A stretch of 48,404 bases of DNA, from the NCBI GenBank assembly GCA_944392585.1, contig CALXXA010000049.1, forward strand, positions 1 through 48,404, given 5' to 3'. The notes beneath the pieces are model-generated. The model saw only the letters and a program-made list of their open reading frames with translations. It had not been told where the DNA came from and made no database searches. This stretch comes from an uncultured Alphaproteobacteria bacterium. GTDB taxonomy: Bacteria > Pseudomonadota > Alphaproteobacteria > CAAHEQ01 > UBA3637. How positions within the stretch are numbered: the first letter of the stretch is position 1; every line of letters starts with the position of its first letter. Positions 43,466 through 48,404 of the stretch are shown piece after piece. The translations under genes and the position numbers were made by a program.

Positions 43466-44059
43466 ATGTCTGCCATTCAACTGGTTATCGCTTCTCAAAA
43501 TGAAAATAAAATAAAAGAATTTCAGTCTATTTTAAAGCCTCTCCATGTTCAAGTTCTTACCGCAAAAGAACTAGATTTGACCAATGTGGATGAAATGGGG
43601 GAGACTTTTAAAGAAAATGCTTTATTAAAAGCAATTTCCGCTTCTAAAGAAAGTGGACTGCCTGCTATCGGAGATGATTCCGGTTTGTGTATTCATGCTT
43701 TAAAAAACAATCCGGGAGTCTATTCGGCAAGGTTCGCTCAAAAATACGGAGGTTTTGAAAAGGCTTTTGAGGTAATCTTAAATGACTTAAAAGACACAGA
43801 AGATAAAACGGCTCATTATTCTTGTGTTATTGCCTTTGCTTTTCCCAATGGGAACGCGCAAACTTTTGAGGGGCGTATTGACGGAACAATCGTTTCTCCG
43901 AAAGGAAAGGGAGGGTTCGGATATGATCCTATATTTATGCCACAAGGATATCAGAAAACTTTCGCAGAGCTTCCGGAATCCCTTAAAAATAAAATCAGCC
44001 ACCGCGGTCGTGCTATGGCTGATTTCCTTAACGTTGTTCATGACTTTATTCAAAAATAA
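43466..44059 (+). CDS. rdgB: non-canonical purine NTP pyrophosphatase (RdgB/HAM1)
   Basis: This 197-residue enzyme hydrolyses dITP, ITP and XTP to keep them out of nucleic acids. It has ASQNENKIKEF at the N-terminus, ETFKENALLKA, GDDSGLCIHAL with the catalytic aspartates, and GFGYDPIFMPQGY. It follows rph by one base. Its end overlaps the convergent pilin gene by 14 bases. Confidence 0.96.
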   Translation: MSAIQLVIASQNENKIKEFQSILKPLHVQVLTAKELDLTNVDEMGETFKENALLKAISASKESGLPAIGDDSGLCIHALKNNPGVYSARFAQKYGGFEKAFEVILNDLKDTEDKTAHYSCVIAFAFPNGNAQTFEGRIDGTIVSPKGKGGFGYDPIFMPQGYQKTFAELPESLKNKISHRGRAMADFLNVVHDFIQK

Positions 44060-44495
44060 CTTTGAATAAATATGAATCCGAACAAAATCCGTCGGAATTA
44101 TTGCATTCCGAGGTTTTTATGTTTGGCCAGCTGCTTGATTCAGCTTGAAGTTGGTCGCAGACATCTTGAGTCGGAAGGCAGGTTTTTATAACAATTCTTT
44201 GTTCGTTTTTGCTTACATTAACGGCGTAACTTCCTCCAAAAGGACTTTCTGGTATATCTATTCCATCGTTTTTTAAGGTTTCGTTACTTCCATCAGGATA
44301 TGTTTTCATCCAAGAATATGTTTGAGCGATATCGTCGGAGAGGGTTAGTATTTGATTGGTTGTTTGCATCATGCGAAATTTTAACATGACTTGGGAATAT
44401 CCGGCTAAGGCACTAACGGCTATAATTCCGATAATAGCTAAAACGCCTAACATTTCTATCATGCTTCGTCCTTGTTCTGTTTTATTGTCTTTCAT
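44046..44495 (-). CDS. type IV pilin-like (pseudopilin) protein
   Basis: This 149-residue protein has a prepilin leader of nine residues and the class III signal G-RSMIEMLGVLAIIGIIAVSALAGY. Glu at +5 and the hydrophobic helix are standard, but Arg instead of Phe/Met is at +1. The globular part has four cysteines (about residues 105, 112, 129 and 137) that could form disulphides. It would be processed by a prepilin peptidase and assembled by a pilus or type II secretion-like machine; none is encoded here. It follows cca by 20 bases with a very strong AAGGAGG site. Confidence 0.85.
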   Translation of the reverse strand: MKDNKTEQGRSMIEMLGVLAIIGIIAVSALAGYSQVMLKFRMMQTTNQILTLSDDIAQTYSWMKTYPDGSNETLKNDGIDIPESPFGGSYAVNVSKNEQRIVIKTCLPTQDVCDQLQAESSSWPNIKTSECNNSDGFCSDSYLFKVIFE

Positions 44496-46992: not shown

Positions 46993-47019
46993 TTGACAAA
47001 ATAAAAAAGGGAATATAAT
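46993..47019 (+). promoter_or_regulatory. predicted strong promoter of the HD-like gene
   Basis: A consensus TTGACA (46993-46998) and consensus TATAAT (47014-47019) are 15 bases apart, shorter than usual. Alternative TTGTTG at 46990-46995 would give 18. The start codon is about 50 bases downstream. Confidence 0.55.
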
Positions 47020-47067
47020 CAATTTGTTTAATGTTTTTTTATTTTAATTTATTTTAAGGAGGAAACA

Positions 47068-47703
47068 ATGACACCACTAGAAAATAAATGTTTATATATA
47101 GCAGAAAAAATGCATGAAGGAGTCTTTTTTGGCAAAGGCTTGAATATGTTGGATCAAATAAAAGGAACATATGCTCTTATGGCAGAGAATACAAAGTTAA
47201 AAGGGAAAGAAAGAGAAAATGCGTTAAGTGCTGTGTTTTTACATAAGTGCTGGGAAAAGAAACGCATTGCCGAGAATCTTGAGCCTATGACAATGGATGA
47301 TATTGAAAAGCACACGAATAAAGACGTTAGACGAATTGTTGAAGAATTAGCTTCCGAGCCTGACGAGAAAGCGTCTCAAACAAAGATGGAACAATGGCAA
47401 GAGAAAGCCCAATGGTCTAAAGGGTTGAGCTTGGCGGCACGAGAAATTTTATTAGCAGAGAAAGTTCAAAATTTTACAGTTTCCCGTGATAAACCGAATC
47501 CAAATAAAACACCAGAATGGCATAAAGAATATATTAAATCTCGGATGTTAATGGTTGAAGCTTTGAAGGAAACGAATGAAAATCTTTACCAGGCGGCATG
47601 CGAAGTAAAGGATTCATTTGAAAGAAAATTAAAGGTCATTGATTCAAATAAGAAATTAAATGATCCTTTAAATCAAAATACTAACATGAAAGAAAGAGAA
47701 TAA
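47068..47703 (+). CDS. degenerate HD-domain protein resembling small alarmone hydrolases (MESH1/RSH-like)
   Basis: This 211-residue protein resembles the HD domain of RelA/SpoT homologues and MESH1, which hydrolyse (p)ppGpp. The matches are ALSAVFLHKCWE (residues 52-63; family AALLHDxxED), MDDIEKHTNKDVRRIVEELA (76-95), KAQWSKGLSLAAREILLAEKVQNF (113-136; family KLADKxxNL) and PEWHKEYIKSRMLMVEALKETNENL. The metal ligands are changed: the HD pair reads His59-Lys60, and the distal Asp is Glu131. His16 could be the first ligand. The highly charged C-terminus adds about 25 residues. Catalysis by the normal manganese mechanism is doubtful. AAGGAGG ribosome binding site; own promoter. Confidence 0.6.
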   Translation: MTPLENKCLYIAEKMHEGVFFGKGLNMLDQIKGTYALMAENTKLKGKERENALSAVFLHKCWEKKRIAENLEPMTMDDIEKHTNKDVRRIVEELASEPDEKASQTKMEQWQEKAQWSKGLSLAAREILLAEKVQNFTVSRDKPNPNKTPEWHKEYIKSRMLMVEALKETNENLYQAACEVKDSFERKLKVIDSNKKLNDPLNQNTNMKERE

Positions 47704-47769: not shown

Positions 47770-47806
47770 GCCCGGTTTTTTTTAATAAGGGAGTACAAAA
47801 CCGGGC
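47770..47806 (-). terminator. intrinsic terminator of the cysteine-rich gene
   Basis: GCCCGGTTTT (47770-47779) and AAAACCGGGC (47797-47806) are perfect 10-base arms with a 17-base loop. On the minus strand the stem is followed by a T-run, so it stops leftward transcription from the gene ending at 47857. Confidence 0.85.
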
Positions 47807-47856: not shown

Positions 47857-48404
47857 TTAAATTTGAGAACATCCGCTTTCCAGATATTCATACCCAGGAG
47901 CGCAACAATAACTGTCTCCGTTTTCTTTCGTTGTTACTTGTCCTTTGCATTCACATCCGTCTGTCATCTTGTATCCTGTCTGCGGGCAAACGCCTGGTTC
48001 TGCACATTGCGGAAGGTAAACTACCCCGCAATTTGTTCCGTCATAGTCACATTTCTCGCCACAACTTTTCCCATTGTAATAACAAACATGAGGAGGAGAA
48101 GCATATGCATGATACTGACAACTGACTCCCGTGTTTTTATTGACACAGCCGTAATATCCTCCCCCACTGACATATCCATATTCGAATCCTTCCGGACACC
48201 CGGGATCTGTACAGACCCCCTGATCTATGGTCCCCGTATGCGTTATCGTGGCACATTTTTTCCCAGCAGAATTATAACAATATTGTCTATATGCTCCGGC
48301 AGTTGTCTCACAATAAACTTCTGTATCCGGGTATTTGCAATACCCCTTCCCCGATGTATCTGTAAAATACTCCATTCCGTTACGGCATTCTTGTTCTTTA
48401 CAAG
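47857..48404 (-). CDS. very cysteine-rich protein, 5' part cut by the window edge
   Basis: This reading frame ends at 47857 and stays open to the end of the window. An in-frame ATG at 48375 is unlikely to be the start, because upstream codons continue the same pattern (CKEQECRNG before MEYF). The 172 residues from that Met contain 19 cysteines, many glycines, tyrosines and aspartates, in spaced pairs such as CTDPGC, CGEKC and CEC. The look is that of a disulphide-bonded extracellular or surface protein with EGF-like or knottin-like modules, not a metal enzyme. No family is recognised. A terminator follows it. Confidence 0.75.
   Translation of the reverse strand, partial: CKEQECRNGMEYFTDTSGKGYCKYPDTEVYCETTAGAYRQYCYNSAGKKCATITHTGTIDQGVCTDPGCPEGFEYGYVSGGGYYGCVNKNTGVSCQYHAYASPPHVCYYNGKSCGEKCDYDGTNCGVVYLPQCAEPGVCPQTGYKMTDGCECKGQVTTKENGDSYCCAPGYEYLESGCSQI

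Follow-up and report, generated by a model that had tools for sequence, protein, structure and literature searches.

The gene described here lies in a window of 48,404 nucleotides (the whole stretch of DNA that was analyzed) from an uncultured Alphaproteobacteria bacterium, and its coordinates, upstream signals and key codons are listed in Table 1. The open reading frame is a genuine gene, derived from the Mesh1-type small alarmone hydrolases (SAHs), enzymes that degrade (p)ppGpp, a signal of starvation, and its product belongs to a family that is outside all curated families. No NCBIfam model matches the protein, and Pfam HD_4 aligns to it with an E-value of 0.0072 and 16.5 bits against a curated cut-off of 27.2 bits, a threshold that some homologues pass, such as that of genome G002 at 42.3 bits. 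Human MESH1 in the PDB is matched by the window protein alone at an E-value of 0.0017; weak matches to Spore_III_AB, AAA_lid_RFC1 and importin were judged to be due to chance.

Table 1. Coordinates of the gene, its upstream signals and the codons at the former metal site and pocket
Feature	Position in window	Strand	Remarks
Promoter-like TTGACA-N15-TATAAT	46993..47019	+	12/12 matches, short 15-nt spacer
Shine-Dalgarno AAGGAGG	47056..47062	+	Strong, from the sequence
ORF, SAH-fold protein with replaced metal site	47068..47703	+	211 aa, ATG start
Phe21 codon	47128..47130	+	Tyr/Phe in family, in place of base-contacting Arg (R24 MESH1, R44 RelSeq)
Gln30 codon	47155..47157	+	Invariant; in place of first metal His (H53 RelSeq)
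His59 codon	47242..47244	+	Second metal His; varies H/N/S/Y in family
Lys60 codon	47245..47247	+	Invariant; in place of HD-pair Asp (D78 RelSeq)
Glu63 codon	47254..47256	+	Nearly invariant; HDxxED Glu kept, next Asp (MESH1 D66) lost
Glu131 codon	47458..47460	+	Invariant; in place of LADK Asp (D144 RelSeq)
Asn135 codon	47470..47472	+	Invariant; equivalent to nucleotide-contacting N148 of RelSeq (PMC13299517)
Tyr155 codon	47530..47532	+	Invariant; common to canonical SAHs

Beyond the gene, an inverted repeat at 47770-47806 (GCCCGGTTTT...AAAACCGGGC), with T7 after it on the minus strand, is likely the terminator of a minus-strand gene at 47857-48375, which encodes a Cys-rich protein of at least 172 residues (the open frame extends up to the end of the contig) with no Pfam match. 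A further minus-strand gene, at 44046-44495, encodes a protein with a pilin-like N-terminus (GRSMIEMLGVLAIIGI), and similar proteins are encoded at L061, L065, L068 and L117-L119.

The relationship to SAHs is weak for the window sequence alone and becomes strong when a family profile and a structural model are used. Comparison of the family profile with canonical SAHs by hhalign yields an E-value of 2.9e-17 over 171 columns, and a search with the profile finds fly CG11900 at 2.5e-7 and human MESH1 at 9.2e-7 (the range for CG11900/MESH1 being 2.5e-7 to 1.7e-6). An AlphaFold2 model built with the 19-sequence alignment (pLDDT 92, pTM 0.87) has human MESH1 as its best match among solved structures (Z 20.5, rmsd 2.6, 172 residues), and the next-best matches are all SAHs, C. 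glutamicum RelH and then P. aeruginosa SAH. The protein thus has the single-domain HD_4/SAH fold of approximately 180-210 residues, and the MESH1-like HD relationship proposed in the initial annotation is borne out by both profile and structure. In a phylogenetic tree the family is separated from the SAHs and Rel with support of 100/99.

Mapping onto canonical SAH and RelSeq positions with two alignments, and scoring invariance across 19 aligned homologues, reveals that the family lacks the His, His-Asp, Asp set of metal ligands of the SAHs; Gln30, Lys60, Glu131, Asn135 and Tyr155 are fixed in 19/19 aligned sequences. The initial annotation had correctly read the HD pair as His-Lys (His59-Lys60 in the window motif LHKC) and the distal LADK as LAEK (Glu131 in LLAEK), and had missed that the first metal histidine is also gone. 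It had further asked whether relatives share Lys60 and Glu131; no intact HD pair occurs among the aligned members, so that the replacement is fixed family-wide and is not a mutation of a single genome. Other hallmarks are altered too. The catalytic Glu-Asp of HDxxED is reduced to its Glu, the Asp position being variable, and the base-contacting RRK loop of SAHs is replaced by a Y/F-G-rich loop; Arg66, Trp110, Trp116 and Arg159 are new invariants in the 19-sequence alignment.

The consequences can be judged from better-known relatives. RelSeq holds Mn with H53, H77 and D144, D78 approaches the Mn upon substrate binding, and the enzyme is killed both by D78A and by R44Q (PMC13299517), the latter residue corresponding to the base-contacting Arg (PMC13299517, PMC12934728). 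T. denticola SAH is likewise killed by D74A, a change of Asp to Ala at the position equivalent to Lys60 (PMC10434055). The residue losses, together with the dead mutants of this same Asp, indicate that the HD hydrolysis mechanism is gone; loss of SAH activity is well supported by the sequence, and the protein would be expected not to hydrolyze alarmones. The pseudoenzyme reading offered in the initial annotation therefore holds, with its altered residues now seen to be family-wide, while its suggestion of a different metal is disfavored, as Gln, Lys and Glu are invariant at three of the four ligand positions and the remaining one can be H, N, S or Y.

Purifying selection evidently acts on the family, in which reading frames are open throughout: within one genus (g11) the copies have a dN/dS of 0.065-0.125, an approximate value as dS is near saturation. 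The segments lining the old pocket have a mean majority identity of 0.73, versus 0.58 elsewhere, and 0/179 circular shifts score as high, with the proviso that these segments were picked from the description of RelSeq after the alignment had been seen.

The promoter is conserved along with the protein. The exact TTGACA/TATAAT pair in Table 1 is the sole one in the window with spacers of 15-19 nucleotides, and most homologues have 10-12 of the 12 consensus bases at a similar distance. With TTGACA, a 15-19 nucleotide spacer and TATAAT starting 59-75 nucleotides before the ATG, a sigma-70 promoter with at least 10/12 consensus bases precedes 18/19 homologues versus 27/184 control ORFs (15%) at those loci, with a Fisher p of about 1e-12. 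This p-value is too small, given the kinship of the homologues and the near identity of two pairs, although flanks and loci differ. A generic scan restricted to spacers of 16-18 nucleotides did not rise above shuffled sequences, and the promoter claim thus rests on the comparative test across homologues, by which the initial annotation's claim of a near-consensus promoter holds in a broader sense than was stated there. No other observation points as strongly to a common way of life among the homologues as this conserved promoter, and from its near-consensus form the family is probably strongly expressed.

Taken together, these observations make it probable that the protein is a catalytically dead pseudoenzyme of SAH descent, with a Lys-Glu pair standing in for the metal, strongly expressed and serving as a stoichiometric nucleotide binder or regulator. 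In place of the four residues of the Mn2+ site (two His and two Asp) the family has Gln30, a freely varying position, Lys60 and Glu131. Most likely the side chain of Lys60 lies where the metal used to sit and is paired with Glu131, so that the pocket keeps its shape without a metal; the simplest interpretation is a salt bridge in the metal's stead, a contact between Lys60 and Glu131 that the predicted fold suggests. The constraint, which is strongest at the pocket, and the retention of Asn135, Tyr155 and Glu63 argue that a nucleotide-like ligand is probably still accommodated there. Binding of alarmones in the old mode is doubtful, since the Arg that contacts the base is absent from every aligned member and the base-contacting Lys has gone as well. 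Almost all copies carry a strong promoter of their own and the gene stands alone, so the protein most likely acts in amount, and its stoichiometric role could be that of a nucleotide receptor or sink, or of a regulator by contact with another protein.

The order of the window genome consists of a single family, and among the 43 genomes compared, homologues are present in 22 by protein search and also in 22 by profile search. The alignment of 19 sequences, used as a query, identifies 18 loci in named records, all from uncultured Alphaproteobacteria and, judged by record titles, mostly from animal guts. One homologue is encoded by G063, a genome from a different family within the class, and has the same sequence as L070; beyond these homologues the family profile finds nothing but Rel and SAHs of the ordinary kind, whose metal motifs are intact. 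Genome G019 has two copies, on contigs C10 and C33 (L009, L025), one of the LHKC and one of the LNKC type, and there are thus paralogues within the family. In G015, a distinct small HD_4 protein whose LHDxxED motif is intact is encoded beside a glycosyltransferase-like gene (L085, 1441-1950). A phage or plasmid origin was ruled out, as no match was found in viral contigs, phages or plasmids, and so was a defense system, no PADLOC family being matched and one weak Csx1 stretch in one homologue being judged a chance match.

A single intact Rel, combining HD_4 with RelA_SpoT, is encoded on contig C4 of the window genome, such that the hydrolase role is already filled. No second RelA_SpoT domain was found in this genome and the gene has no conserved neighbor, neighbors changing between loci, which speaks against both an operon partner and the adjoining small alarmone synthetase expected of an antitoxin SAH. 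The block of rdgB, a pilin-like gene, CCA/polyA polymerase and rnd is common to genomes G000, G001, G002 and G012, of which G000 alone has the gene after rnd. Between G000 and G002 the Rel proteins are 89% identical and the family proteins 42%, the latter grouping with those of other genera. This within-genus disparity and the G000-only position rule out a simple vertical orthologue, and with the changing loci they suggest that the gene either moves from genome to genome within the order or has been lost among old paralogues.

The same data weigh on a different explanation, that the protein is a dead partner of the genome's Rel or other HD proteins, forming mixed dimers or docking on the hydrolase or synthetase domain of Rel with no small ligand of its own. 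Precedents exist in the homodimeric T. denticola SAH, which resembles RelH proteins in this respect (PMC10434055), and in RelA, whose dead HD domain has a regulatory role and controls its synthetase (PMC8012599). An intact Rel-type HD_4 is above cut-off in 42/43 genomes of the order, and tandem, very divergent copies behind one consensus promoter per pair occur in G009 (L086, 3475-4897) and G017 (L087, 4067-5395), the first gene of each pair having the promoter and the second being without one; these pairs may form mixed dimers. The copies in G017 keep the Lys plus Glu pair, and those in G009 have, as read by eye, Arg plus Glu and His plus Glu at these positions. Against a Rel partner, about half of the Rel-bearing genomes are without the family, the family diverges far more than Rel does, and conservation is centered on the pocket; we consider this explanation unlikely.

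An active enzyme with a new chemistry, in which Lys60, Glu131 and Glu63 would act on a nucleotide-like substrate either without metal or with a different one, appears quite improbable. The strict fixation of Lys60, Glu131, Gln30 and Arg66 is what would be expected of active-site residues, and Trp110, Trp116 and Arg159 appear as new invariants, but the water-activating Asp is lost and a salt bridge that takes over from the metal would simply explain a Lys beside a Glu. To our knowledge there is no precedent for such chemistry in the HD fold, and this counts against it. A decaying paralogue without current function might account for the patchy presence and long branches, and is scarcely credible given open frames throughout, purifying selection, invariant new residues and conserved promoters.

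For the metal-free pseudoenzyme a more tentative and specific version is possible: a clade-specific nucleotide receptor in gut Alphaproteobacteria, with Lys60 in place of Mn2+, strongly expressed and binding an alarmone or NADP-like molecule so as to buffer or sense it. If alarmones are still bound, the protein would serve as a naturally occurring buffer or receptor for (p)ppGpp and offer a ready scaffold for sensors, and the invariant Lys-Glu-Gln set would represent a clear example of an ion pair taking the place of a metal centre. We found no report of free-standing inactive SAHs kept under selection in the literature searched.

Among known systems, the Mesh1 and Mesh1-L SAHs (MESH1, 3nr1/5vxa; P. 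aeruginosa SAH, 6yvc; C. glutamicum RelH, 7qod) are closest, the fold being common over 166-179 residues with Z about 20. They share with the family its single-domain size, motif order, the pocket Asn and Tyr, and the Glu of HDxxED, whereas in the family all metal-ligand positions are changed or free, the catalytic Asp66 and base-contacting Arg/Lys are gone, and Arg66, Trp110, Trp116 and Arg159 are newly invariant. The MESH1 D66K mutant, described by title as a complex with PAPS (PDB 9chy), indicates that nucleotide binding is possible for a mutated SAH, and the window protein also has Lys at the D66 position, but D66K is an engineered single change and the family does not conserve this Lys. 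The inactive hydrolase domain of RelA[hS] in gamma-proteobacteria (PMC8012599, PMC3153485) is likewise an RSH HD domain that is kept without its catalytic residues; it is fused to a synthetase and is without the whole HDxxED, whereas the window protein is separate, not joined to the genome's sole RelA_SpoT domain found, and has fixed replacement residues. Inactive HD domains are thus already known, as in RelA, and the lysine-glutamate-glutamine set is a variant on that theme.
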